Positions 20,718 to 38,307 of a stretch of DNA of 41,103 nucleotides are shown here, one piece after another. Both the position numbers and the translations under genes were made by a program. The stretch is from a virus, in IMG/VR virus record IMGVR_UViG_3300031885_000044, positions 1 to 41,103 of that record. One strand, written 5' to 3'. The notes under the pieces are model-generated. The model did not search any database and was not told the origin of the DNA. It was given only the letters and a program-made list of their open reading frames with translations. How positions within the stretch are numbered: the stretch's first letter is position 1; every line of letters starts with the position of its first letter.

Positions 20718-20969
20718 ATGAGAACAGTACAACAAGAAGAAATTTTAAGAAAATCAGTTTTATTCGCTGGCTTATTTGTCGAAGCGGTTTGTATTTTTAG
20801 GGACAAACCGCTTAAAAAATGGGCTGCCATTCCGATAGGTAGCGAATGTTTAGAGTTGCCTTTATTGGATAATTTCAATATTGCCCCATCTAGATTGAGT
20901 AATATATCTGCTCCCTATGGTAATTATTGTGTTACCGAGGAAAGTCTTGTGTTTTTTAATGAAGCCTAA
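20718..20969 (+). CDS. First-cassette protein of unknown function
   Basis: Encodes 83 residues with a hydrophobic N-terminal part (SVLFAGLFVEAVCIF) and WAAIPIGSECLELPLLDNFN. The stop TAA is the TAA of the attC-1 R'' core (gcctaac), so the coding sequence ends inside the recombination site, as for several other cassettes here. ATG 20718 follows aaacagaaagca, a start region also seen before 26370 and 35417. Function unknown. Confidence 0.6.
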   Translation: MRTVQQEEILRKSVLFAGLFVEAVCIFRDKPLKKWAAIPIGSECLELPLLDNFNIAPSRLSNISAPYGNYCVTEESLVFFNEA

Positions 20970-21037
20970 CGAACGGGGCTTGTTTCAGCCTTTGTGTTGC
21001 GCCTGCGGCAAAGGTGGTCAGCAAACACGTGTTAGCG
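20964..21037 (+). repeat. attC-like site 1 (74 bp, short type)
   Basis: R'' gcctaac (20964-20970) and R' gttagcg (21031-21037). The interior has the cggggcttg box, tgttt pairing with aaaca, cctttg pairing with caaagg, and a tgtgttgcgcctgcggca apex shared with sites 13 and 15. No start codon inside. Confidence 0.8.
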
Positions 21038-21068
21038 GTAGGTTTTATTTAATCTTAATTTAGTCAAA

Positions 21069-21317
21069 ATGAAAAAAGAAAAAACTATGAGGCTGCTTTT
21101 TGAGGAAAAGAAAAAGTTAGTCCTAAAAACTAAGATAGCAGGTGAAAGTCTCGATAGATTAATTAATAATAAATGGGGTTTTCATTATTCTGAAACTGAT
21201 GATGATAAAATTATTGATACTCTAGATTACGGCACAACATCGTTAACATTTAAAGATTTTGTAGAGCGAATGGACGAGTACAAACTATCGGTTGAAAAAT
21301 GTGGTTCTTTTCGGTAA
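21069..21317 (+). CDS. Cassette protein of unknown function
   Basis: Encodes 82 residues, strongly basic at the N-terminus (MKKEKTMRLLFEEKKKLVLKTK) and acidic in the middle (ETDDDKIIDTLDYG). It has its own start 32 bases after the R' core, behind an A/T-rich leader of the kind that begins the non-fused cassettes. The cassette ends GTTAGCGGTA and TACCGCTAAC are complementary for 10 bases. No family recognised. Confidence 0.6.
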   Translation: MKKEKTMRLLFEEKKKLVLKTKIAGESLDRLINNKWGFHYSETDDDKIIDTLDYGTTSLTFKDFVERMDEYKLSVEKCGSFR

Positions 21318-21330
21318 ATTCTAAACTTAC

Positions 21331-21408
21331 CGCTAACTGACGGCTGTATATTTAACCGCCTTGTAACTAACACACATCATCGGCGGTTGAATGTACAGCG
21401 TGTTATGC
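21331..21408 (+). repeat. attC-like site 2 (78 bp)
   Basis: R'' cgctaac (21331-21337), R' gttatgc (21402-21408). The arm gctgtatatttaaccgcc (21343-21360) pairs with ggcggttgaatgtacagc (21382-21399) with two G-U or mismatch positions, around a 21-base loop. Confidence 0.85.
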
Positions 21409-21449
21409 GCTTTTAAATTTTGTATAGTCATAACTTAATAATTAATAAA

Positions 21450-21806
21450 ATGGAAGCAATCGAATTAAGCAATCAATTGAGAAGTGGCAATCTGATTAAT
21501 TATATGGGAAAGCCAATAAAGTGTAGTATATCAACAATTTTCGCAGTGTCTAAATGTATTGGAGATTCTTTTTTATACCAACCGATTTTATTAACAGATG
21601 AATTTCTGATTGAACTTGGATTTGAGCAAAGAAAAAATTACGATTGTTATGGAGTTATTTTTGATAATATTAGATTCTCCTATTTTTTAAACAAAGAGTG
21701 GTTAAAAATTGATTCGATGGATGTCTTTAGGAAAATTAAATACGTCCACGAATTACAAAATATCATTCATTCATTAACTCTTAAAGAGTTGCAGTATCAG
21801 TCTTAA
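21450..21806 (+). CDS. Bacteroidetes accessory protein with YVHELQN motif
   Basis: Encodes 118 residues. The ordered motifs ELSNQLRSGNLI, LTDEFLIELGFE and IKYVHELQNIIHSLTLKEL occur in a widespread family of small Bacteroidetes phage and chromosomal proteins without known function. ATG 21450 follows a typical A-rich cassette leader; an ATG-less extension upstream begins at TTG 21420 in the same frame. The cassette ends GTTATGCGC/GCGCATAAC are complementary. Function unknown. Confidence 0.65.
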   Translation: MEAIELSNQLRSGNLINYMGKPIKCSISTIFAVSKCIGDSFLYQPILLTDEFLIELGFEQRKNYDCYGVIFDNIRFSYFLNKEWLKIDSMDVFRKIKYVHELQNIIHSLTLKELQYQS

Positions 21807-21810
21807 TTGC

Positions 21811-21945
21811 GCATAACGGTTCGGGTATTAGCTTTCGTTGCCGTTGCTTGATTAACTACAAATGATTATTAAACGCTTAAAACTTAAATATATGAACAAG
21901 CTTTCAAAAGAAATACAAGGCAATGAAGCTAATACCTTGTTACCA
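21811..21945 (+). repeat. attC-like site 3 (135 bp, leader-bearing)
   Basis: R'' gcataac (21811-21817), R' gttacca (21939-21945). The arm ggtattagctttcgttgcc (21824-21842) pairs with ggcaatgaagctaatacc (21919-21936). The enlarged loop carries ATG 21892, whose frame reads through the right arm and R' into the next cassette. Confidence 0.85.
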
Positions 21946-22113
21946 GCAGTTAGTTGGTATAAATCGCTTTCGCTTCAACAAAGAATGGGATTAAAAGAAG
22001 TATCAGCATTAATTTGTGGTATGAAATGGGAAGATTTTAAAATACTATTTACACCACGAGAAAGGCTTGAAATACTACACAACAAATTAATGTTGGAAGG
22101 TTTCGATGTCTAA
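21892..22113 (+). CDS. Split cassette ORF: attC-3 leader fused to cassette body
   Basis: Encodes 73 residues. Residues 1-16 (MNKLSKEIQGNEANTL) are coded by the attC-3 loop and right arm. The body from LPAVSWYK onward belongs to the next cassette, with the presumed crossover between TTG and TTA codons (21939/21940). The body has internal methionines at residues 32 and 41. An additional upstream ATG (21862) is in frame. The body motifs (SLSLQQRMGLKEVSALICGM, then RERLEILHNKLMLEGF) are helical. Function unknown. Confidence 0.6.
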   Translation: MNKLSKEIQGNEANTLLPAVSWYKSLSLQQRMGLKEVSALICGMKWEDFKILFTPRERLEILHNKLMLEGFDV

Positions 22114-22117
22114 TTGC

Positions 22118-22250
22118 TGGTAACGTTACGATTATTTGCGTTTGGTGGGGTGTTACACCACCAAAGATTATTAACACCACAAAATTTTAAAATATGCAGA
22201 TAGATTCTAAAAAACACATCACCCCCACTGACGCAAATAATGTGTTAGCG
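22118..22250 (+). repeat. attC-like site 4 (133 bp, leader-bearing)
   Basis: R'' tggtaac (22118-22124), R' gttagcg (22244-22250). attatttgcgtttggtgggg (22131-22150) pairs with cccccactgacgcaaataat (22222-22241). Start codon ATG 22194 lies in the loop. Confidence 0.85.
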
Positions 22251-22397
22251 GCTGGCTATTCTTTCAAATTGGGAGATTTTCAATTGGTATTAGATGAAGA
22301 TACAGGAGAGTTAAAGGTTATAGTTCATAAAAACAAATTAAGGTTAACGATTAAACCAAATAGTGATAATAGTTGCACCCTTGTAGCTTGCCGCTAA
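22194..22397 (+). CDS. Split cassette ORF: attC-4 leader fused to a Met-less body
   Basis: Encodes 67 residues. Residues 1-17 (MQIDSKKHITPTDANNV) are coded within attC-4. The body (LAAGYSFKLGDFQLVLDEDT...) contains no methionine, so without the attC leader it has no ATG start. Crossover falls between GTG and TTA codons (22244/22245). The stop TAA is part of the R'' core of attC-5, so both gene ends lie in recombination sites. The body looks like a small all-beta domain. Function unknown. Confidence 0.6.
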   Translation: MQIDSKKHITPTDANNVLAAGYSFKLGDFQLVLDEDTGELKVIVHKNKLRLTIKPNSDNSCTLVACR

Positions 22398-22516
22398 CGG
22401 TTTCGGGCTTGGCGAAGTTGCCGAACACAAAACTTCATTAGAATTACAAATGTTTAAATTAATATAAAATGTCAAAAGAAAACGAAAACGGCAATTTTGC
22501 CAAACCGATGTTAGGT
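22392..22516 (+). repeat. attC-like site 5 (125 bp, leader-bearing)
   Basis: R'' cgctaac (22392-22398), R' gttaggt (22510-22516). cggtttcgggcttggcgaag plus ttgccg on the left pairs with cggcaattttgccaaaccg (22489-22507). The left arm is followed by gccgaacacaaa and attagaattacaaat, a loop sequence shared with site 16. Confidence 0.82.
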
Positions 22517-22651
22517 GCAGTTAAATATAAGTTTTGGCTTCATAACGGAGAGCTTCTATACAGTTGCAAAACCGATGAAAAAAAGAATAAGTATGAACGT
22601 GGGTTGAAAGCAAAAAATGTAAAATATACATTGGAGGTTGTCGGTGCTTAA
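22469..22651 (+). CDS. Split cassette ORF: attC-5 leader fused to a Met-less body
   Basis: Encodes 60 residues. Residues 1-14 (MSKENENGNFAKPM) come from attC-5 and the body (LGAVKYKFWLHNGELLYSCK...) has no methionine. The crossover lies between ATG and TTA codons, so that ATG (22508) is itself an alternative start. The leader segment GNFAKPM resembles GNDAKPV of the attC-6 leader because both are coded by the same attC arm. Function unknown. Confidence 0.6.
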   Translation: MSKENENGNFAKPMLGAVKYKFWLHNGELLYSCKTDEKKNKYERGLKAKNVKYTLEVVGA

Positions 22652-22655
22652 TTGC

Positions 22656-22787
22656 ACCTAACGGATGGGGCTTGGCGTTCGTTGCCTATTTTAAAAACGA
22701 ACATTTTAAAAAACCAAAATGAAATTAAAAACAGAAAACTTCAAGACTACCACAGATTTAGGCAATGACGCCAAACCCGTGTTAGCG
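22656..22787 (+). repeat. attC-like site 6 (132 bp, leader-bearing)
   Basis: R'' acctaac (22656-22662, a perfect RYYYAAC), R' gttagcg (22781-22787). gggcttggcgttcgttgcc (22668-22686) pairs with ggcaatgacgccaaaccc (22761-22778). ATG 22719 lies in the loop. Confidence 0.85.
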
Positions 22788-22967
22788 GATAGTTCTTTAT
22801 CCGTTTTATTGGATTACGAAATTAGAAGTAGTTGGTGGGCTTCTTGGATTGGTTGGGATTGGGGGCAAGAACTTTCAGGTAAATACTTTGCTTGGAAAAC
22901 GAGCAGAAAGTATGTAAGGTATAAGCAGTCAAAGGTGTGGGAGCAACGGATAAAGAATTTCCGCTAA
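22719..22967 (+). CDS. Split cassette ORF: attC-6 leader fused to a Met-less body
   Basis: Encodes 82 residues. Residues 1-21 (MKLKTENFKTTT..., ending NDAKPV) come from attC-6. The 61-residue body (LADSSLSVLLDYEIRSSWWA...) is Trp-rich and basic and has no methionine. Crossover lies between GTG and TTA (22781/22782). The stop TAA forms part of the R'' of attC-7. Function unknown. Confidence 0.6.
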   Translation: MKLKTENFKTTTDLGNDAKPVLADSSLSVLLDYEIRSSWWASWIGWDWGQELSGKYFAWKTSRKYVRYKQSKVWEQRIKNFR

Positions 22968-23061
22968 CGAATGGTTGTATGTGTTCGGTTTTGCCACACA
23001 CACACTTCAATTCAAAGCACAAAAGCCAATTGGCAAAACTGACATATACAACGTGTTATGC
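22962..23061 (+). repeat. attC-like site 7 (100 bp)
   Basis: R'' cgctaac (22962-22968), R' gttatgc (23055-23061). gttgtatgtgttcggttttgcc pairs with ggcaaaactgacatatacaac (23032-23052) with few mismatches. The loop is C/A-rich and contains no start codon, so the next gene uses its own. Confidence 0.85.
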
Positions 23062-23093
23062 GTTGATTATTATTAATTTAAACTAAAATAAAA

Positions 23094-23357
23094 ATGGAAA
23101 CAATTGTAAAAATTACGTGGGATGAACCACAAATGAAAGAATGGTTATGTGCCGATAATATTCAAATCGCGTTATCTGCATATTGTAAAAACACAAAATT
23201 TGAGGTAAAAGAAGTTGAACCACAAATGCCGAGTGATGAAGAAATTCAACATTTAACTTTACAAGATGCAAAAGAGCGTGAAGTTTTGTGTTACGAAGGA
23301 CATGAATTAATTATGAAAGCTGGAATAAAGCACGGACTTTCTTTAATTAACGCATAA
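23094..23357 (+). CDS. Cassette protein of unknown function
   Basis: Encodes 87 residues, acidic (METIVKITWDEPQMKEWLCA...EVKEVEPQMPSDEEIQHLTL). ATG 23094 follows a 33-base A/T-rich leader after the R' core. The stop TAA is contributed by the R'' of attC-8. Cassette ends GTTATGCGTT/AACGCATAAC are complementary for 10 bases. No family recognised. Confidence 0.6.
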   Translation: METIVKITWDEPQMKEWLCADNIQIALSAYCKNTKFEVKEVEPQMPSDEEIQHLTLQDAKEREVLCYEGHELIMKAGIKHGLSLINA

Positions 23358-23414
23358 CGGACGGGGCTTGTTGCATACCGCTTTTTCTGCGGTTGAAACA
23401 AGGACGTGTTATGC
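23352..23414 (+). repeat. attC-like site 8 (63 bp, short type)
   Basis: R'' gcataac (23352-23358), R' gttatgc (23408-23414). cttgtt pairs with aacaag and accgc with gcggt around a 5-T apex. The sequence is a near copy of site 10, with a compensatory T-A to C-G change at 23371/23398. Confidence 0.87.
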
Positions 23415-23448
23415 GCTTTTAAATTTTTTAAATCTAAAAAATAAAATT

Positions 23449-23616
23449 ATGGAATTTATTATTAGTTGTGTTGGCTTCATCCTTTTATGGGTGGCTACAG
23501 ATGTAGGAAGAAAAGAAGTTGATAAAATAGTCTTTTTTCGTAGTAAATGGTTTGTTATTTTTGCCTTAATCACAATCGGAGTATTGCTTATTAAAAACGC
23601 TCATAACTTCAACTAG
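23449..23616 (+). CDS. Small two-segment membrane protein in a cassette
   Basis: Encodes 55 residues with two hydrophobic segments (MEFIISCVGFILLWVATDVG and KWFVIFALITIGVLLIK). ATG 23449 follows the standard A/T-rich cassette leader; the frame is open further upstream through attC-8 but has no ATG there. Function unknown; small membrane proteins of this shape can act in superinfection exclusion. Confidence 0.5.
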   Translation: MEFIISCVGFILLWVATDVGRKEVDKIVFFRSKWFVIFALITIGVLLIKNAHNFN

Positions 23617-23638
23617 GGTAGTGTCCTGTTTTAATTGC

Positions 23639-23672
23639 GCATAACAACCTTATATATGCCATAAATGTAATA
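23639..23672 (+). repeat. attC-like half site 9, right end of array 1
   Basis: R'' gcataac (23639-23645) matches the start of its cassette (GTTATGCGC at 23408). No R' or long right arm follows; only ttat (23650-23653) can pair with ataa (23661-23664). The array seems to end here in phage backbone sequence. Confidence 0.5.
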
Positions 23673-26990: not shown

Positions 26991-27053
26991 GCATAACAAA
27001 CGGGGATTGCTGCATACCGCTTTTTCTGCGGTTGAAGCAAGGACGTGTTAGCG
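26991..27053 (+). repeat. attC-like site 10 (63 bp, short type)
   Basis: R'' gcataac (26991-26997), R' gttagcg (27047-27053). Stem ttgct/agcaa plus accgc/gcggt. Same family as site 8, with covariation C27010-G27037. Confidence 0.87.
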
Positions 27054-27087
27054 GTAGTTTTTATTTAAAATAATAAAAATAAATCTT

Positions 27088-27465
27088 ATGAAATACGAAG
27101 TAAAATACAAAGAACTTGAAGCCTATTTAACATCGCTTCCAGAAAAAGAATTTCAAAATAAAATGTATAATCCAAATGGGATTATAATAGAAGCTGAATT
27201 GATTAATGATATTGAGCATTTCAAAATAGATGTGTCAAAATTAGACCCTGCTCAAATAGTCAATTATGGTATGCCTTTCATGGTGGATGCTTTGGGCAAT
27301 GATTTGTCCGTATGTTTTTTATCAAGGCGAAAATACAAGTTGCCCACTGGCAGAGTCGTAAATATGAAACTAGGTGAAACAGTAGTAAATAATTGCAGGA
27401 AAGCGTTTGGAACTCCTTTGAATGGTTGCTGGGTTATTCCACCGCAGTTCATCATCTTAAAATAA
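27088..27465 (+). CDS. Cassette protein of unknown function
   Basis: Encodes 125 residues, mixed alpha/beta (NPNGIIIEAELINDIEHFKI, VNYGMPFMVDALGNDLSVCF). It has its own ATG 35 bases after R'. Its cassette start (GTTAGCGGTAG) matches not its own end (CTGCTAAC) but the end of the following cassette, so the two may form one composite cassette. No family recognised. Confidence 0.6.
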   Translation: MKYEVKYKELEAYLTSLPEKEFQNKMYNPNGIIIEAELINDIEHFKIDVSKLDPAQIVNYGMPFMVDALGNDLSVCFLSRRKYKLPTGRVVNMKLGETVVNNCRKAFGTPLNGCWVIPPQFIILK

Positions 27466-27466
27466 C

Positions 27467-27599
27467 TGCTAACGAATGAGGCTAACCGCATGTAGCGGAA
27501 ATTGAAACACTTAACTATCAAAATACAACAAACATGATACAAGGCACTTTATTTGAATTACCCACTAAACCCGCTATTGCGGTTAAGCCTGTGTTAGCA
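27467..27599 (+). repeat. attC-like site 11 (133 bp, leader-bearing)
   Basis: R'' tgctaac (27467-27473), R' gttagca (27593-27599). gaggctaaccgcatgtagcgg (27478-27498, one longer than the matching core) pairs with ccgctattgcggttaagcct (27571-27590). ATG 27534 is in the loop. R'' and R' here match each other, unlike most junctions. Confidence 0.83.
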
Positions 27600-27761
27600 A
27601 CTGGGCTTACTTGCCGAAAATGCAAACACAATCAAGCTTGGCAATGCAATAGTAAAGTTTTTCATTATTGCGGAATAAGAAAAAGTAAACAAACGAGCAA
27701 CGGACAATTAAAGATTAAATGCAAAAATGTAGCGTGCAGTCTTTTTGAGCCTTACCGCTAA
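27534..27761 (+). CDS. Split cassette ORF: IQGTLFE leader fused to a cysteine-rich body
   Basis: Encodes 75 residues. Residues 1-20 (MIQGTLFELPTKPAIAVKPV) come from attC-11. The body (LATGLTCRKCKHNQAWQCNS...KIKCKNVACSLFEPYR) has seven cysteines in a zinc-ribbon-like C-x2-C-x2-H...C...C...C...C order and no methionine. The same IQGTLFE leader is attached to the Mom-like body at 34083. The stop TAA lies in the R'' of attC-12. The body resembles small Bacteroidetes phage proteins of unknown function. Confidence 0.65.
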   Translation: MIQGTLFELPTKPAIAVKPVLATGLTCRKCKHNQAWQCNSKVFHYCGIRKSKQTSNGQLKIKCKNVACSLFEPYR

Positions 27762-27886
27762 CGTTTTGCAGCTAAACGAGGTGGCTGATTATACCTCGAA
27801 ACTTAATTAAAAACACAGAATTATGAGTACAGAAAAAACTTCATTAGAAAACGAAAGCCAGCCATCTTGTTTAGGTGCTGTTATGT
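27756..27886 (+). repeat. attC-like site 12 (131 bp, leader-bearing)
   Basis: R'' cgctaac (27756-27762), R' gttatgt (27880-27886). gcagctaaacgaggtggctg (27768-27787) pairs with cagccatcttgtttaggtgc (27859-27878). ATG 27823 lies in the loop. Confidence 0.83.
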
Positions 27887-28056
27887 GTGCGTTGCCTTGT
27901 CCTTTTTGTGGCTCGGATACTGAATTTGAAACAACGACTTTTGGAGATGGTATGACCGATTATTTTAGAGTGAACTGCAAACAAAAAGGACACTCACTTG
28001 ATTGGTGGGAAGAAGATAAAAATAAAGCTATTGCTGTTTGGAACGAGAGGCAATGA
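27823..28056 (+). CDS. Split cassette ORF: Lar-like restriction alleviation protein with attC-12 leader
   Basis: Encodes 77 residues. The body (ALPCPFCGSDTEFETTTFGD...FRVNCKQKGH...NKAIAVWNERQ) has the Lar family signature CPFCG, a second Cys region and a final AI..WN.R. Lar proteins relieve type I restriction (known for the Rac prophage Lar). Residues 1-19 (MSTEKTSLENESQPSCLGA) are coded by attC-12. The crossover (27880/27881) falls inside the V20 codon, and the ATG within GTTATG (27883) is an alternative start giving a normal-length Lar protein. Confidence 0.7.
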   Translation: MSTEKTSLENESQPSCLGAVMCALPCPFCGSDTEFETTTFGDGMTDYFRVNCKQKGHSLDWWEEDKNKAIAVWNERQ

Positions 28057-28057
28057 C

Positions 28058-28129
28058 ACATAACGGACGGGGCTTGGTGTGCCTTTGTGTTGCGCCTGCG
28101 GCAAAGGTAACACCAAGGACGTGTTAGCG
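28058..28129 (+). repeat. attC-like site 13 (72 bp, short type)
   Basis: R'' acataac (28058-28064), R' gttagcg (28123-28129). cttggtgt pairs with acaccaag and cctttg with caaagg; apex tgtgttgcgcctgcgg shared with sites 1 and 15. Confidence 0.87.
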
Positions 28130-28179
28130 GTAGGTTTTATTTTCAAATCTAATTTAATATTAATCTAAAAACAGTAAAA

Positions 28180-28584
28180 ATGGAAAACGAAGTTAAAAAA
28201 TTTGATGCAGCCGATGCTATGTTGTCGGTAAAAGAAAAAATTAAAGATGCATTCGTGTCTTTAATCCCAGACGAACAGTGGAACGAAATGGTTCAAAAGG
28301 AAATTAAGTCATACTTTGAAGTTAAAGAAGAAAGATATGATAATCGTATGTATGCATCTGACTTTACTCGAACGGTTCATTCAGAACTTACTTCCGAAGT
28401 TAAGGTAAGAGTTAAAACATATTTACAGGAAAATTTTAATAATGTTTGGTATGATAATGGAGTCCCTATTTGCAATGCTAAAGTTGAAGAAATGATTACT
28501 AAAAATGCAGGTAAAATTCTATCCGATATGATTGGTGGGAGTATATCTATGGCTCTAAATCAGGCTGGTTTTCGCATCCAGTAA
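28180..28584 (+). CDS. Cassette protein of unknown function
   Basis: Encodes 134 residues, helical and acidic (MENEVKKFDAADAMLSVKEK, WNEMVQKEIKSYFEVKEERY). Own ATG 50 bases after R'. Cassette ends GTTAGCGGTA/TACCGCTAAC are complementary for 10 bases. Last gene of array 2. No family recognised. Confidence 0.6.
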   Translation: MENEVKKFDAADAMLSVKEKIKDAFVSLIPDEQWNEMVQKEIKSYFEVKEERYDNRMYASDFTRTVHSELTSEVKVRVKTYLQENFNNVWYDNGVPICNAKVEEMITKNAGKILSDMIGGSISMALNQAGFRIQ

Positions 28585-28589
28585 CTTAC

Positions 28590-28653
28590 CGCTAACAACT
28601 GTGTAGAAGACACTATGTCTTCTACTGGACAAAAACAACAAATAGTATACACG
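28590..28653 (+). repeat. attC-like site 14, right end of array 2
   Basis: R'' cgctaac (28590-28596). The interior has a perfect 10-bp hairpin gtagaagaca/tgtcttctac and flanking gtgta/tacac and actat/atagt pairs. It ends at G28653 with no GTTA core. Close copy of site 20, which follows an unrelated gene. Confidence 0.65.
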
Positions 28654-29016: not shown

Positions 29017-29847
29017 ATGACTCTATTTAGAGATCACTTTCAGAATTTTAAGACATACCAAATACCAAAGGCTCAGTTAATTATTGCTGACATACCCTAT
29101 AATTTAGGCAATAACGCTTATGCTTCAAATCCTAGTTGGTATAAAGATGGAGACAATAAACAAGGCGAAAGCGAATTAGCAGGCACAAACTTTTTTAATA
29201 CCGACGAAGATTTTCGCCCTGCTGAATTTATGCACTTTTGCAGTACAATGTTAAAATCAGAACCTAAAACTAAAAAAGAAGAAGGCGAAACAAAGCGGCT
29301 AAAAAGCAGTGCACCTTGTATGATTGTTTTTTGCGCATTTGACCAACAAATGTATTTAATCGAGTTGGCCAAAAAGTACGGTTTGCCAAATTACATTAAT
29401 CTTGTATTTCGCAAAAATTTTTCAGCTCAGGTGCTAAAAGCAAATATGAAAATAGTGGGTAATTGTGAGTATGGACTTGTTTTTTATAGGGATAAGTTGC
29501 CAAAATTTAACAACCACGGTAAAATGATTTTTAATTGCATGGATTGGCCACGAGATAATGAAAGCGAAAAAATCCACCCAACTCAAAAGCCAATTAAACT
29601 ACTAGAGCAACTTATAAGCCTTTGTACCGACATTGGAGATGTTGTAATAGATCCATGTGCTGGTAGTGGCTCTACTTTGGTAGCTGCTGATAATTTAGGC
29701 CGAAAAGGTTACGGTTTTGAAATTGATAGAAATTTTCACAAATCAGGATCTTTATGGGTTGAAAGCAATAAATTAAGACTAAAAGAGATTGAAAAATTTG
29801 GATTTGCTAAAACTTTAGTTAGTAAAATTCACCCAACTTTGTTTTGA
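29017..29847 (+). CDS. DNA adenine-N6 or cytosine-N4 methyltransferase, beta class
   Basis: Transfers methyl from S-adenosylmethionine to DNA. Motif IV is DIPY (residues 25-28, variant of DPPY) near the N-terminus, and motif I (DPCAGSGST, about 211-219) is near the C-terminus, preceded by KIHPTQKPIKLLEQL; this order defines the beta class. No cognate endonuclease is nearby, so it is an orphan enzyme that probably protects phage DNA from host restriction. Target base and site cannot be read off. Confidence 0.87.
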   Translation: MTLFRDHFQNFKTYQIPKAQLIIADIPYNLGNNAYASNPSWYKDGDNKQGESELAGTNFFNTDEDFRPAEFMHFCSTMLKSEPKTKKEEGETKRLKSSAPCMIVFCAFDQQMYLIELAKKYGLPNYINLVFRKNFSAQVLKANMKIVGNCEYGLVFYRDKLPKFNNHGKMIFNCMDWPRDNESEKIHPTQKPIKLLEQLISLCTDIGDVVIDPCAGSGSTLVAADNLGRKGYGFEIDRNFHKSGSLWVESNKLRLKEIEKFGFAKTLVSKIHPTLF

Positions 29848-32264: not shown

Positions 32265-32609
32265 ATGAAAGCAGTTAATGAAGAATTTGAATATCAAGGT
32301 GTTTTTTACCGCACAATACAAGCGTCTTGCGATAATTGCTGTTTTTCTTTCCCTGGCAATTGTGTAGCACTTTGTACCGATGGGGATGTATTTGCATGCA
32401 ATGAAGTCGCTTTTGTTATAGCATCGAAAAAAGGCCAAAAAAACTGCGAATGCGCACAAAAAGACTGCAAAAATAAAGGTGCTAATTACTGGCATCGCAT
32501 GAATAAAGAATATTTTTGCGAGACGTGTGCTGAGATTATAGCTAAATTAATGGCCAAAGATATTGCACTGGTTTGTAGTGATGGTAAATTATTGGTAAGG
32601 GAGGCGTAA
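32265..32609 (+). CDS. Cysteine-rich protein ending in an attC core
   Basis: Encodes 114 residues with about 14 cysteines (CDNCCFSF, CVALC, CECAQKDCKNKG, FCETCAE), so probably two zinc-binding units. The stop TAA belongs to the R'' core of attC-15. No matching left core is found, so whether this is the first cassette of array 3 or a backbone gene is open. Confidence 0.6.
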   Translation: MKAVNEEFEYQGVFYRTIQASCDNCCFSFPGNCVALCTDGDVFACNEVAFVIASKKGQKNCECAQKDCKNKGANYWHRMNKEYFCETCAEIIAKLMAKDIALVCSDGKLLVREA

Positions 32610-32673
32610 CGAACGGGGCTTGTTGCCTCCTGTGTTGCGCCTGCGGCAGGTGGTCAACAAACACATGTTAGCG
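32604..32673 (+). repeat. attC-like site 15 (70 bp, short type)
   Basis: R'' gcgtaac (32604-32610), R' gttagcg (32667-32673). ttgttg pairs with caacaa and cctg with cagg; apex tgtgttgcgcctgcgg shared with sites 1 and 13. Confidence 0.85.
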
Positions 32674-32709
32674 GCTTTTAATATTTTTTCTAATCTAAAT
32701 AATAGTCTT

Positions 32710-33072
32710 ATGAAATACAAAATTATCGACAAAGCAACCAAAAAAGAACTTGATTATTCTAAATACGCACTAACAGCTTACGGAGACGTTCTGAGTATTC
32801 CAAATGGTCTTGTTTTATCAAATTCATCTGATTTTATAATCGAGCCTATTTTAGAGCACGATTTAGTTGATTTAAATTCAAAAAACTATCAATTAAAAAT
32901 GTTGCAAAATATTGAGCGAATTTTTTTGTCAAAAGCATTGCGTAAAAGAACTCAAAACGTATGGCTCGTACAAAGCTTCCTGACTTCATTTACAAGCAAA
33001 GGAGGGTCGACTTCGTCTTTCGCCCATTGTGATTTTCTTGGAATTGATCCAAATGGATACACCTTCTTTTAA
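32710..33072 (+). CDS. Cassette protein of unknown function
   Basis: Encodes 120 residues. The N-terminal segment MKYKIIDKATKKELDYSKYA then GDVLSIPNGLVLSNSSDFII resembles compact phage proteins that mirror a data field (YopX-like), but the match is weak. ATG 32710 follows the usual A/T-rich cassette leader. Cassette ends GTTAGCGGC/GCCGCTAAC are complementary. Confidence 0.6.
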   Translation: MKYKIIDKATKKELDYSKYALTAYGDVLSIPNGLVLSNSSDFIIEPILEHDLVDLNSKNYQLKMLQNIERIFLSKALRKRTQNVWLVQSFLTSFTSKGGSTSSFAHCDFLGIDPNGYTFF

Positions 33073-33076
33073 TTGC

Positions 33077-33200
33077 CGCTAACATACGTGTATATGGCAA
33101 GTAGCCGAACACAAATGTTGATTAGAATTACAAATATTAATAAACCGCAAATAGTTTCTAAAATGCCTGACACGGCTATTTGCTATATACATTGTTAGGC
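33077..33200 (+). repeat. attC-like site 16 (124 bp)
   Basis: R'' cgctaac (33077-33083), R' gttaggc (33194-33200). gtgtatatggcaagtagccg (33088-33107) pairs with cggctatttgctatataca (33174-33192). The loop shares gccgaacacaaa and attagaattacaaat with site 5. Its only ATG (33162) reads MPDTAICYIHC and stops at the TAG of GTTAG, i.e. out of fusion phase. Confidence 0.85.
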
Positions 33201-33210
33201 GCAGTTAATT

Positions 33211-33417
33211 ATGGGAAATTTTATAACTCAGGAACAATATGACACTCTTTTAAAAGCAAAGAAGTCAAATGAATATGCAAACCATATATGTAACGTAAAA
33301 TGTGGGTTGGGAAAAACAAAGCAATTTGAAGTTAAGGGAACTAAATTGAAGTTAGAAATGAGATGTACAAACCAAGGTGGAATGTGGACTGGTAGCCATT
33401 GCTTTGTTGTGTGCTAA
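33211..33417 (+). CDS. Cassette protein of unknown function
   Basis: Encodes 68 residues (MGNFITQEQYDTLLKAKKSN...), with four cysteines (CNVKC, MRC, HCFVVC) and a beta-rich C-terminal half. ATG 33211 lies only 10 bases after the R' core. Ends GTTAGGCGCA/TGTGCCTAAC match with one mismatch. No family recognised. Confidence 0.55.
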   Translation: MGNFITQEQYDTLLKAKKSNEYANHICNVKCGLGKTKQFEVKGTKLKLEMRCTNQGGMWTGSHCFVVC

Positions 33418-33421
33418 TTGT

Positions 33422-33552
33422 GCCTAACAGACGAGGCTATATTTCAGTAAGGGATTACGTGGGCAGTTCTTATCAACCTACACAAAATTACCCAGAGAGA
33501 ACCGAACTTGAATAACAGCTAAAACCCTTATTGAATATAGCCTTTGTTATGT
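33422..33552 (+). repeat. attC-like site 17 (131 bp)
   Basis: R'' gcctaac (33422-33428), R' gttatgt (33546-33552). aggctatatttcagtaaggg (33434-33453) pairs with cccttattgaatatagcctt (33525-33544). No ATG leader; the R' core itself contains ATG (33549) opening a hydrophobic frame. Confidence 0.85.
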
Positions 33553-33644
33553 ACTGCTTATTTTTATTCATTATAAATTACGTTTTTTGTTGCATATATC
33601 AGATATATGATATATCTTTACAAAGAATTAAAAAATTAGAAAAA

Positions 33645-33866
33645 ATGAAAAACACAATTTGGGCAAATGTAAAAACCTCAATATTCTTTACAACAATGGA
33701 TATGGGTTGGCAAAAAGAATGGGATATTCTTTTATATAATGAAGAACCAGTAACAAGTATGGAAGTAGCAATAAGAATAGTTAAAGTACATTTTAAAGGT
33801 ATAACTATTGGACTTGCAACATACGAACAAATGGTAATAGGTAACGCTGAATGGGATAACTTATGA
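33645..33866 (+). CDS. Cassette protein of unknown function, first of a two-gene cassette
   Basis: Encodes 73 residues (MKNTIWANVKTSIFFTTMDM...). ATG 33645 follows an A-rich stretch. The frame is open back to ATG 33549 in the R' core, which would add an N-terminal membrane segment (MYCLFLFIINYVFCCIY) for 105 residues; I prefer the shorter form because the region looks like a long cassette leader. Stop and next start overlap (ATGA, 33863-33866). Confidence 0.5.
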   Translation: MKNTIWANVKTSIFFTTMDMGWQKEWDILLYNEEPVTSMEVAIRIVKVHFKGITIGLATYEQMVIGNAEWDNL

Positions 33867-34018
33867 AAAAAATAATAAATATACCTGACAGTATAATCGA
33901 AGATTTGCAGCTCGATACGATTAAAAACAAAAAAGGTCGTAAGCGTTTCGAGCTTTCTAATCGAATAACTGAAATACTGATTAACCACGTAACGATACTA
34001 CGAAGCACGGATAAGTAG
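33863..34018 (+). CDS. Small ribbon-helix-helix-like protein, second of a two-gene cassette
   Basis: Encodes 51 residues (MKKIINIPDSIIEDLQLDTI...). A strand (IINIPDS) and two helices with a basic middle (KNKKGRKRFELSNRITEILI) fit a CopG-like DNA-binding fold, though it is short. Coupled to the preceding gene by ATGA. The pair has the look of a toxin-antitoxin or regulator pair, but nothing proves it. Cassette ends GTTATGTACT/AGTACATAAC are complementary for 10 bases. Confidence 0.5.
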   Translation: MKKIINIPDSIIEDLQLDTIKNKKGRKRFELSNRITEILINHVTILRSTDK

Positions 34019-34019
34019 T

Positions 34020-34149
34020 ACATAACAGCTGCGTGTATGAGCAGTTGCGGTCATAAACCACAAAACTTAATTAGAAGTAGAAATGATGAATATACAAGGA
34101 ACTTTATTTGAAACACTTAACCCGCAATTGCTTATACACGATGTTATGT
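34020..34149 (+). repeat. attC-like site 18 (130 bp, leader-bearing)
   Basis: R'' acataac (34020-34026), R' gttatgt (34143-34149). cgtgtatgagcagttgcgg (34032-34050) pairs with ccgcaattgcttatacacg (34122-34140). ATG 34083/34086 lies in the loop and opens the IQGTLFE leader. Confidence 0.86.
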
Positions 34150-34778
34150 GTAGTAATTTTTGTGCGGTGGGTGCTGTTCGTGATTATAAAGTGCTTTTAT
34201 GCAATAGGAAAGAAATTGTTGGCTTTGTAGAACATTGGCATTACTCTAAAAACGTGAACGGACTTACAACTGATTACTGTTTTAAATTATTGGATGCTGA
34301 TGGGAATATGATAGGTGCAATGATTTACGGAAAGATAGCGATGGCTAATGTGTGGAAAAAGTATGCCCAAAACGAAATTGAATTGATAGAACTAAAAAGG
34401 CTTTGTTGCATAGATAACACACCAAAGAACACCGAAAGTTTTTTTATTGGGCATACTTTGAGATGGCTAAAAAAGAATACCGAAATTAAAACAGTAATTA
34501 GTTATGCCGATACAACTTATTCACACGATGGAACTATCTACAAAGCCAGCAATTTTGTGCATTGTGGAATGACAGCAAAAGGCAAAGTAATAATGTATGA
34601 AGGTAAAAGATACCACGACAAAACAATAAGAACCAAATACAACGGAAACTTAAAACCTTTTGCTATTAAGATAAAAGAAGCACTTGAAAACGGAACTGCT
34701 GAATGTGTAGATACACTCGGAAAGCACATCTATCTTTATGGGTTACGGGGTGCGGTGGCAAAAAATTATTACACATAA
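34083..34778 (+). CDS. Mom-like DNA adenine modification protein, split across attC-18
   Basis: Encodes 231 residues. The body has the phage Mu Mom-family layout on a GNAT-like fold: EHWHYSKNV (about residues 50-58), LIELKRLCCIDNTPKNTESF (about 101-120), and YADTTYSHDGTIYKASNFVH (about 141-160) with the AD...H.G.IY.A.NF signature. Mom modifies adenine in phage DNA and blocks host restriction. Residues 1-20 (leader MMNIQGTLFETLNPQLLIHD) are coded in attC-18; crossover is inside the next Val codon and ATG 34146 is an alternative start. The stop TAA lies in R'' of attC-19. Other members need no leader, so its role is open. Confidence 0.72.
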   Translation: MMNIQGTLFETLNPQLLIHDVMCSNFCAVGAVRDYKVLLCNRKEIVGFVEHWHYSKNVNGLTTDYCFKLLDADGNMIGAMIYGKIAMANVWKKYAQNEIELIELKRLCCIDNTPKNTESFFIGHTLRWLKKNTEIKTVISYADTTYSHDGTIYKASNFVHCGMTAKGKVIMYEGKRYHDKTIRTKYNGNLKPFAIKIKEALENGTAECVDTLGKHIYLYGLRGAVAKNYYT

Positions 34779-34869
34779 CTGTGGCGATTGGCGAAGTAAA
34801 AGCCTTGCACTACCGTTCAAATTTAGCACGATGCCCAGTGGCTTTTATTTTGCCAATTGCGTGTTACCT
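34773..34869 (+). repeat. attC-like site 19 (97 bp, with abortive leader)
   Basis: R'' acataac (34773-34779), R' gttacct (34863-34869). gcgattggcgaagtaaaagcc (34784-34804) pairs with ggcttttattttgccaattgc (34840-34860). ATG 34831 starts a leader in the fusion phase (GTG|TTA) that runs 21 codons and stops at 34896, because the next cassette has no open body in that frame. Confidence 0.84.
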
Positions 34870-34916
34870 GCTGCCCTTTCTCGGATTATTAATTAACAAC
34901 TTAAACAATAAATAAA

Positions 34917-35327
34917 ATGCAAACATTAAACAGAAAAACAAAAGAATTAGTAGAAGCAACCCTAATAATTGGTGTTGCTCGTGGCGAAGGTGTAAACAAT
35001 TCAAGTCACGATGATAAGAAAGATAAAATCAAAGGAAGTATTGATAATCTTACTAATCGTCAAATTGAAATTACAAAACAAACTGCAATTGATTTTGCGA
35101 ATTGGTTGGACAAACTACAACCCAATGAAAAGGTTTCTGTATGGTCTAAAAATGGCGAATGGAAAGGATTATTTACAATGGATAATGAACAGCTATTTGA
35201 AAAGTTTGAAAAGCAATATACAGAGCCTTGTAATGGCAAGTGTGGAATGAATTATTGCGATGATAACGGATGCCTTGAAAACAAACCAAAGTCAGAAGGT
35301 GAAGATGTTGCTGTGGTGTCCGCTTAG
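34917..35327 (+). CDS. Cassette protein of unknown function
   Basis: Encodes 136 residues. A helical middle (NRQIEITKQTAIDFANWLDK, LQPNEKVSVWSKNGEWKGLF) and a Cys-rich tail (CNGKCGMNYC, NGCLENK) are visible. Own ATG 47 bases after R'. Cassette ends GTTACCTGC/GCAGGTAAC are complementary. Last cassette of array 3. No family recognised. Confidence 0.6.
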   Translation: MQTLNRKTKELVEATLIIGVARGEGVNNSSHDDKKDKIKGSIDNLTNRQIEITKQTAIDFANWLDKLQPNEKVSVWSKNGEWKGLFTMDNEQLFEKFEKQYTEPCNGKCGMNYCDDNGCLENKPKSEGEDVAVVSA

Positions 35328-35333
35328 GGTTGC

Positions 35334-35396
35334 AGGTAACAACTGCGTAGAAGACACTATGTCTTCTACATGACAAATAAGCAAATAGTAGACACG
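35334..35396 (+). repeat. attC-like site 20, right end of array 3
   Basis: R'' aggtaac (35334-35340). The interior is nearly identical to site 14, including the perfect gtagaagaca/tgtcttctac hairpin, and stops matching it after G35396. No GTTA core follows. Confidence 0.65.
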
Positions 35397-37082: not shown

Positions 37083-38307
37083 ATTTAAGCCAACAACAGC
37101 TCTTTATAAAATTAAAACCCTATTGCGAAATATAAATAGGGTTTTTGTTATTTCAGGAGGCCAAGGGGCAGGTAAAACCATATCCATTCTTATGTTAATC
37201 ATAGATTATGCCCATCGTAATGATAAAAAGAAAATATCAATTATTTCTGCCGAACTTTCAAAAATGAAAAAGACAGTTGTAAAGGATTTTCTAGAAATTA
37301 TGAACGATTGGAATATGATTGACATGGGGCGTTGGCATGCAACAGAAAACACATTCACATTCAAAAATGGCACCTTTATTGAGTTTTTAGGGCTTGACAC
37401 GCATGATGTCGGTAAAGGAATGAGGCGTGATTTGGTTTATTTTAACGAAGCTAATAAATTAAAACAAGAAGCTTATAGACAGGTTGGTTCTCGATGTAAA
37501 TTGAATATTATAGACTTTAACCCTGATAAACGTTTTTGGGGACACGACTTGATTAATGAAAACAATTTTATAAATCTGACTTTTAATGACAATGAATTTC
37601 TTAGCGAAGAGGAACGTGAAAGTATTTTGGAGTACTATAAAAAAGGATACGCAGAGGATGGAGCGATTATAAATGAGTATTGGGCAAATATTTGGCGTGT
37701 TTATGGATTGGGTGAGATTGGCAGTGTTGAGGGCAGGATTTTTACTCATTTTAAACCGATAAAGTTTAGTGAATACATGGCCATAAATTCACCTAAAACA
37801 TACGCAATAGATTGGGGTAAAAATCACGGGTTCGGAATAATAGAAGGCAAATTTGATAGGTATTATAATAACCTCTATGTTAATGAATTGAACTACAAAA
37901 GTGAGAACAAATTAATCTCTGAGCTTACTGATTATGACAAAGCTTCGATAAACAATAAAGAAAACGGAGGCATAATAGTTTATATGGTTAGAAAACTAAA
38001 TATACCAAAGGAATCTATAATAGTTTGCGATAGTGCGGTGCCTGATAATATAAAACTCTTACGTGCCCATGGTTGGGAATATGCATATGGAATAGATAAG
38101 CCCAAGGGGTCTGTAATGGCTGGAATTTCACTGCTACAATCTACAAACGTGTTTTATACTGATTTCTCCGCTGGTATCGAGCACGAGCATCAAACATACC
38201 AATATCGAGCTGATAGGATGGGAGTTGTTGATGATGAGGTGCTAAAAGAAAATGATGATTTGATAGACCCTATTAGGTATTTGCGTAGGCATTACGAAAA
38301 GGCATAA
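37075..38307 (+). CDS. terL: Terminase large subunit
   Basis: ATP-driven packaging motor and nuclease. The 410 residues show Walker A GGQGAGKT (28-35), Walker B LVYFNEAN (about 120-127, glutamate at 125) and a C-terminal RNase H-like nuclease with acidic residues in YAIDWGKN (about 246), IIVCDSAVPDN (about 319) and DLIDPIRY (about 398). ATG 37075 was chosen over an upstream TTG (37051). A bidirectional terminator follows. The family (Terminase_3-like) includes headful and cohesive-end packaging types; the mode cannot be read here. Confidence 0.93.
   Translation: MFKFKPTTALYKIKTLLRNINRVFVISGGQGAGKTISILMLIIDYAHRNDKKKISIISAELSKMKKTVVKDFLEIMNDWNMIDMGRWHATENTFTFKNGTFIEFLGLDTHDVGKGMRRDLVYFNEANKLKQEAYRQVGSRCKLNIIDFNPDKRFWGHDLINENNFINLTFNDNEFLSEEERESILEYYKKGYAEDGAIINEYWANIWRVYGLGEIGSVEGRIFTHFKPIKFSEYMAINSPKTYAIDWGKNHGFGIIEGKFDRYYNNLYVNELNYKSENKLISELTDYDKASINNKENGGIIVYMVRKLNIPKESIIVCDSAVPDNIKLLRAHGWEYAYGIDKPKGSVMAGISLLQSTNVFYTDFSAGIEHEHQTYQYRADRMGVVDDEVLKENDDLIDPIRYLRRHYEKA

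Follow-up and report, generated by a model that had tools for sequence, protein, structure and literature searches.

The window, the whole 41,103 bases of an IMG/VR phage record, carries a gene of the Mom family whose first ATG lies inside an attC-like site. In the reading that we favor, and consider probable, the phage carries a GNAT-fold Mom enzyme in an integrase-free array (CALIN), as a cassette of the integron type. The body of the cassette would be an open frame between R' (G|TTATGT) and R'' (ACATAAC) whose stop is the TAA of R''; the start codon for this body would be the one in the loop of the attC before it, making the product a 20-residue attC-encoded leader fused to the Mom domain. 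Bodies may be exchanged by an integrase acting in trans or by homologous recombination at attC stems, and adenine in the phage DNA is the most likely target of the enzyme, which would thereby blunt host restriction, as judged from its family and fold. Translation from the leader start codon we infer, while the architecture itself is seen in the sequence. Many cassettes of this phage and of related phages appear to use the identical design, and the attC-borne start codon is a stronger result than the Mom cassette. Its general form, in which the recombination site provides a ribosome-binding region, start codon and frame for cassettes that are start-less protein modules of Bacteroidota phages, many of them ending on a stop within R'', we consider rather likely. 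The features are listed in Table 1.

Table 1. Coordinates of the Mom cassette, its flanking sites and the cassette arrays in the window
Feature	Coordinates	Strand	Basis or details
Cassette array 1	20964..23645	+	ORFs 21862, 22194, 22469 and 22719 begin within the preceding attC
Cassette array 2	26991..28596	+	ORFs 27534 and 27823 begin within the preceding attC
SCLGAV-type attC-like site	27756..27886	+	Loop starts ORF 27823
Lar-like gene, second leader-started cassette	27823..28056	+	PF14354, 2.5e-6, 28.1 bits against a cut-off of 28.6
Cassette array 3, with the Mom cassette	32604..35340	+	attC 32604-32673, 33077-33200, 33422-33552, 34020-34149, 34773-34869
Upstream attC-like site	34020..34149	+	Finder score 28
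Parts of the upstream attC	R'' 34020-34026; 5' arm 34032-34050; 3' arm 34122-34140; R' 34143-34149	+	R'' ACATAAC; R' GTTATGT
Mom leader, 20 codons	34083..34142	+	MMNIQGTLFETLNPQLLIHD; lies in attC loop and 3' arm; same frame as the Mom body
Mom cassette body	34143..34779	+	G|TTATGTGTA ... TACACATAAC; end pairing; homology limits in relatives
Mom (GNAT-like) catalytic domain	34188..34757	+	PF25680 at these coordinates; fold match to 8bv8
Downstream attC-like site, Mom body/next cassette	34773..34869	+	Finder score 27

Among the open reading frames of the record, the one at 34083-34778 (ATG to TAA, 231 codons) was matched by the Pfam profile Mom, PF25680 (3.3e-33, residues 36-224, 115.5 bits against a curated cut-off of 27.1), and by PHROG 1384, Mom-like DNA modification (8.7e-59). 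A profile built from 27 relatives retrieved a single solved structure, Mom of phage Mu (8bv8, 8.4e-20). The AlphaFold2 model of the 231 residues had a mean pLDDT of 81, with residues 1-24, including the attC-encoded leader, disordered. The motifs from which the first-pass annotation had read the Mom-family signature, EHWHYS (residues 50-55), ELKRL (103-107), and SYADTTYSHDGTIYKASNF (140-158), are all present, and the residues invariant across the family alignment (H53, Y54, E103, R106, D111, N116, E118, S140, A142, Y153, A155, and N157) lie in or adjoin them. That annotation would have given up the assignment on an unrelated fold; in Foldseek the best PDB match was 8bv8 (5e-11), followed by GNAT acetyltransferases, and family membership stands, backed by profile, solved-structure match and predicted fold. 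The protein resembles Mu Mom, a methylcarbamoylase, in the profile match over the conserved core, the same fold and the shared residues HY, E-L-R, N-[ST]-E, SxAD, and YxASNF, but differs from it in sequence (18% identity in the structural alignment), in the attC-derived leader and in the cassette setting. Mom-like genes occur in 264 cultured-phage records, so the Mom gene itself is not new.

The proposal that the gene is carried as a recombination cassette was confirmed as sequence architecture, on the strength of end pairing and of homology ending at the R boxes in related contigs, with its limits redrawn. The cassette ends had been described as complementary, and GTTATGTGTA (34143-34152) and TACACATAAC (34770-34779) are exact complements over 10 nt; the pairing extends to 19 nt (GTTATGTGTAGTAATTTTT/AAAAATTATTACACATAAC) if a single mismatch is allowed, which on the coding (top) strand is a G.T wobble. 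In the related contig L002 the cassette ends covary (GTTATGGGCA/TGCCCATAAC). The cassette does not comprise the whole ORF, as had been claimed: it consists of the body, and positions 34083-34142 belong to the upstream attC. Since the entire ORF had been taken as the cassette, the start codon in the neighboring attC and the stop in R'' (TAA, 34776-34778) had been missed. The start codon sits in the large loop of the upstream attC, and a second in-frame ATG occurs within the body at 34146. Folded as RNA, the upstream site gives a long hairpin whose loop contains the start codon (-37.6 kcal/mol, z -5.6); the bottom-strand DNA of this site folds too (z -3.6). The bottom-strand fold of the downstream site is no better than that of many shuffles (z -1.25).

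The attC finder required R'' and R' boxes and complementary arms at fixed offsets, with a threshold score of 18. It returned 14 sites scoring at least 18 on the window's plus strand, compared with 3 in all from six Markov genomes, each read on one strand (about 0.5 per strand), and with lower-scoring and hand-read sites the count is 17 attC-like sites in three arrays, the third of which ends in a terminal R'' (35334-35340). In all 17 cassettes the 5' end matched the complement of the cassette's own R'' over 6-10 nt, often further after one mismatch; the summed run was 152 against a shuffled-partner mean of 89.6, and none of 100,000 permutations was as good. Class 1 control cassettes pair at their ends likewise, over 12-13 nt in clear cases, and the feature therefore fits true integron cassettes. 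As in attC sites, R'' and R' bound an imperfect hairpin, which folds less convincingly at 34773. At about 5 and 2 nt, the unpaired spacers of the window sites are unlike those of class 1 attC (5 and 6 nt). Stem mismatches in the window and related loci comprised 57 G.T/T.G against 8 C.A/A.C on the coding strand; they are mostly a 5'-arm G opposite a 3'-arm T, giving A.C on the bottom strand, a pattern that class 1 sites lack. No tyrosine recombinase (PF00589) was found in the 41,103-base record, which may be incomplete, and no integron integrase over the cut-off among 33 related records; with 17 sites and no integrase in this possibly incomplete record, the arrays agree with a CALIN (at least two attC sites, no integrase). 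An identical element, AACTGYGTAGAAGACACTATGTCTTCTAC, which contains a perfect hairpin, directly follows the last R'' of arrays 2 and 3 (28597-28625 and 35341-35369).

Two further features depart from integron cassettes. A cassette gene should start within its own cassette after R'; here the first ATG is in the upstream attC, a start at the 34146 ATG being possible. Body and downstream attC should travel together; bodies 95-99% identical were found with unlike downstream sequence. In border comparisons, for which the shuffled identity baseline was 14-38%, the window and L002 were 90% identical in the upstream stem and 85% in the body but 29% downstream, and the window and L004 were 83% identical in the body with both flanks at 21-27%. 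The pair L143/L144 had 99% identical bodies and 29% downstream, and L231/L232, which carry a third Mom variant, 88% in the body with flanks at 22% and 26%. Identity falls at both borders, so the breaks lie at R' and R'' alike, and neighbors that change at the R boxes are as expected of exchanged modules. The change of the downstream stem at R'' counts against the favored reading, since simple insertion of a body with its downstream attC at R' explains the R' break only; the mechanism may be an integrase in trans or homologous recombination at shared stems. A unit made of the upstream attC and the body was considered and rejected: it suits four contigs that have the Mom leader stem, yet in L149 and L231/L232 the upstream stem changes too, so both borders move.

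Four SCLGAV leaders precede copies of the start-less body IRSFPDNVEIWKWW; in L149 an unrelated attC with a different leader stands before it, and the sequences switch at G|TT. Among phages that are more distant (L151-L159), longer ordinary proteins have this body as their C-terminal part, which looks as if gene fragments were captured. A chimeric Mom was observed in L046 (11847-12590), where a window-type leader and the first 24 body bases are followed by another Mom variant; this second part has its own ATG (compare L231 and L232). In L134, from a Flavobacteriales MAG, the ORF after the cassette reads like a serine recombinase (MKTAIAYIRISDEDQ...).

The same hairpins might be RNA-level translation start elements that homologous recombination spreads between phages with no integrase involved, an explanation that we regard as unlikely though deserving of weight. 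It would account for the predominance of G.T mismatches on the coding strand, the very strong RNA fold, the breaks of stems and bodies alike at the R boxes, and the lack of an integrase in the record and related records. It is opposed by the R'/R'' boxes and own-R'' pairing, which match true integron cassettes including the class 1 control, and by the behavior of other phage attC sites, of which IntI1 recombined 5 of the 6 tested (PMC9892861).

Starts inside attC sites are widespread in the window, where an ORF beginning in the loop reads through R' at 7 of the 9 sites of at least 125 nt (7 of 10 counting a 124-nt site), and the bodies at 22194, 22469, and 27534 have no start of their own. Loop-started ORFs through R' were also found at attC sites of L002, L003, L046, L048, L051, and L053. 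The arrangement of the Mom gene in the window, with the first ATG of its frame in the attC, recurs in L002, L003, L046 (the same contig as L045), and L048; the upstream hairpin of L003 is degenerate and scores under the finder threshold. The Mom bodies of L046 and L048 have 32-38% protein identity to that of the window, yet the leader MNIQGTLFE and the stem are in common (91% identity between the leader stems of the window and L048), and overall, Mom bodies 32-45% identical share one leader stem. This stem was absent from genome contigs, searched with the exact pattern, and from cultured phages. Matches to the pattern TAACGRACGGGGCTTG were chiefly due to chance; L051, L053, and L061 proved to have real arrays, and L052 a single attC-like site.

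The largest sample came from the 3' arm of the SCLGAV-type site, used as a 22-base search pattern in IMG/VR and about 85,000 bacterial genomes. It was present in 70 IMG/VR viral contigs and in only 2 contigs of the bacterial genomes, from a Sediminibacterium MAG and a Flavobacteriales MAG; plasmids gave no match to the stem and cultured phages at most a weak 39-base match. The leader search took the ATG of the longest frame and so leans to in-frame choices; in it, all 72 SCLGAV leaders were in frame 0, and their lengths (45, 51, 54, 57, or 63 nt) are all divisible by three. Scored independently of that pick, 47 of the 51 distinct bodies had 28 or more open codons in the leader frame; the two other frames gave 8 and 1. 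No ATG occurs within the first 20 codons of 24 of these bodies; in 37 the exact own R'' lies close to the stop, and the stop is the TAA of R'' in 20. With the same finder, none of nine class 1 control sites started an ORF, and their genes begin 10-61 nt past R' in clear cases. Four leaders in array 1 (21811-22787) read R' as xxG TTA, while sites elsewhere mostly have GTT as a codon, so that leaders and bodies form two frame groups.

These counts bear on a simpler account, in which the Mom gene and the phage CALIN are both ordinary, translation starts at the ATG of GTTATG (34146) and the open frame upstream is incidental. The in-frame ATG at 34146 makes such a start possible, the body also occurs in L004, where no attC precedes it and its frame lacks ATG, GTG and TTG codons ahead of the ATG of GTTATG, and attC arrays in virulent phages have already been published (PMC9892861). 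We nevertheless judge it improbable, given leaders that hold their frame in 72 of 72 cases while differing in length by multiples of three, the nearly half of the SCLGAV bodies that lack an early ATG, and the three startless bodies of the window. Finally, the leader might be a functional peptide, for example a sliding-clamp motif (QGTLF) that brings Mom to replicating DNA and is carried by the attC for that purpose; although Q.[SDT]LF occurs in the first 15 residues of 10 of 2,099 ORFs against 1.4 expected (8 of the 10 in the Mom family) and the Mom genes of L005 and L006, which have no attC, begin MQTSLF, we find this very doubtful, because the motif was picked post hoc, its copies are related, other leaders are without it, and substitutions in SCLGAV leaders (511, 948, and 875 at the three codon positions) are not concentrated at third positions. 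That lack of third-position bias suggests that the frame rather than the peptide is kept. As a general feature of leaders the clamp motif was rejected; it is suggestive in Mom leaders only.

Returning to the Mom cassette with its attC-borne start, the setting is that of a phage, with terminase and portal genes, whose host is probably a member of Bacteroidota, judging from two MAG contigs with the same attC type and from promoter-like sequences read by eye. No tRNA gene and no Rfam match were found in the 41,103-base record, and its DnaC-like protein had no relatives in IMG/VR. Mom of phage Mu modifies adenine in phage DNA and so blunts host restriction. An anti-restriction role through adenine hypermodification is likely for the window protein as well, by analogy of family and fold, and from the sequence we infer that the cassette could be an 'exchangeable anti-restriction module', as the first-pass annotation put it. 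The orphan N6/N4 methyltransferase reported outside the arrays is present at 29017-29847, and the product of the cassette at 27823-28056 is a borderline candidate for the restriction-alleviation protein Lar; together they suggest restriction pressure. PADLOC returned nothing for the Mom or the Lar-like protein. The genome is poor in CCGG, CGCG, and GATC (observed/expected 0.13, 0.20, and 0.20), an avoidance that supports restriction pressure and also suggests that any protection by enzymes would be partial at most, incomplete or inconstant.

Integron cassettes are viewed as complete genes with weak expression signals. In the phage arrays translation initiation and the first residues seem to come from the recombination site, in which case any in-frame open fragment would be expressible at once, as a chimeric protein. 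If this is true, gene fragments, Mom and other anti-restriction proteins could be expressed just by landing behind an attC, and for phages a fast trial of counter-defense genes would follow, with Mom and the Lar-like protein as examples. An attC-borne start would also be a recognizable signature in uncultivated phages and would predict protein N termini.

Clusters of attC without integrase have been described in virulent phages, with methyltransferase cargo (PMC9892861). The window is like them in having several attC sites, no integrase, a phage genome and DNA-modification cargo; it differs in its 17 sites, and that paper mentions neither Mom nor attC-borne starts. In class 1 integrons, ORF-11, ORF-17, and ORF-18 of attI1 and short attC ORFs act by reinitiation, according to a review of cassette expression (PMC8876359). 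The likeness lies in the own-R'' end pairing of class 1 cassettes and in a recombination site that aids cassettes with weak starts; unlike the termination and reinitiation at ORF-11, the window site would give the start codon itself, fused in frame. Start codons borne by attC and fused in frame to cassettes were undescribed in the literature searched, which covered few subscription journals and preprints. Other Mom-like genes beside attC sites, which the first-pass annotation had suggested looking for, were found in L002, L046, L048, and Polaribacter phage P12002L, while most Mom relatives found are not beside attC. In P12002L (L049) a Mom-family gene with 37% identity to that of the window lies between attC-like sites on the minus strand (37305-38015). 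It is annotated 'DNA modification protein', and its Mom identity is unremarked in PMC9892861.
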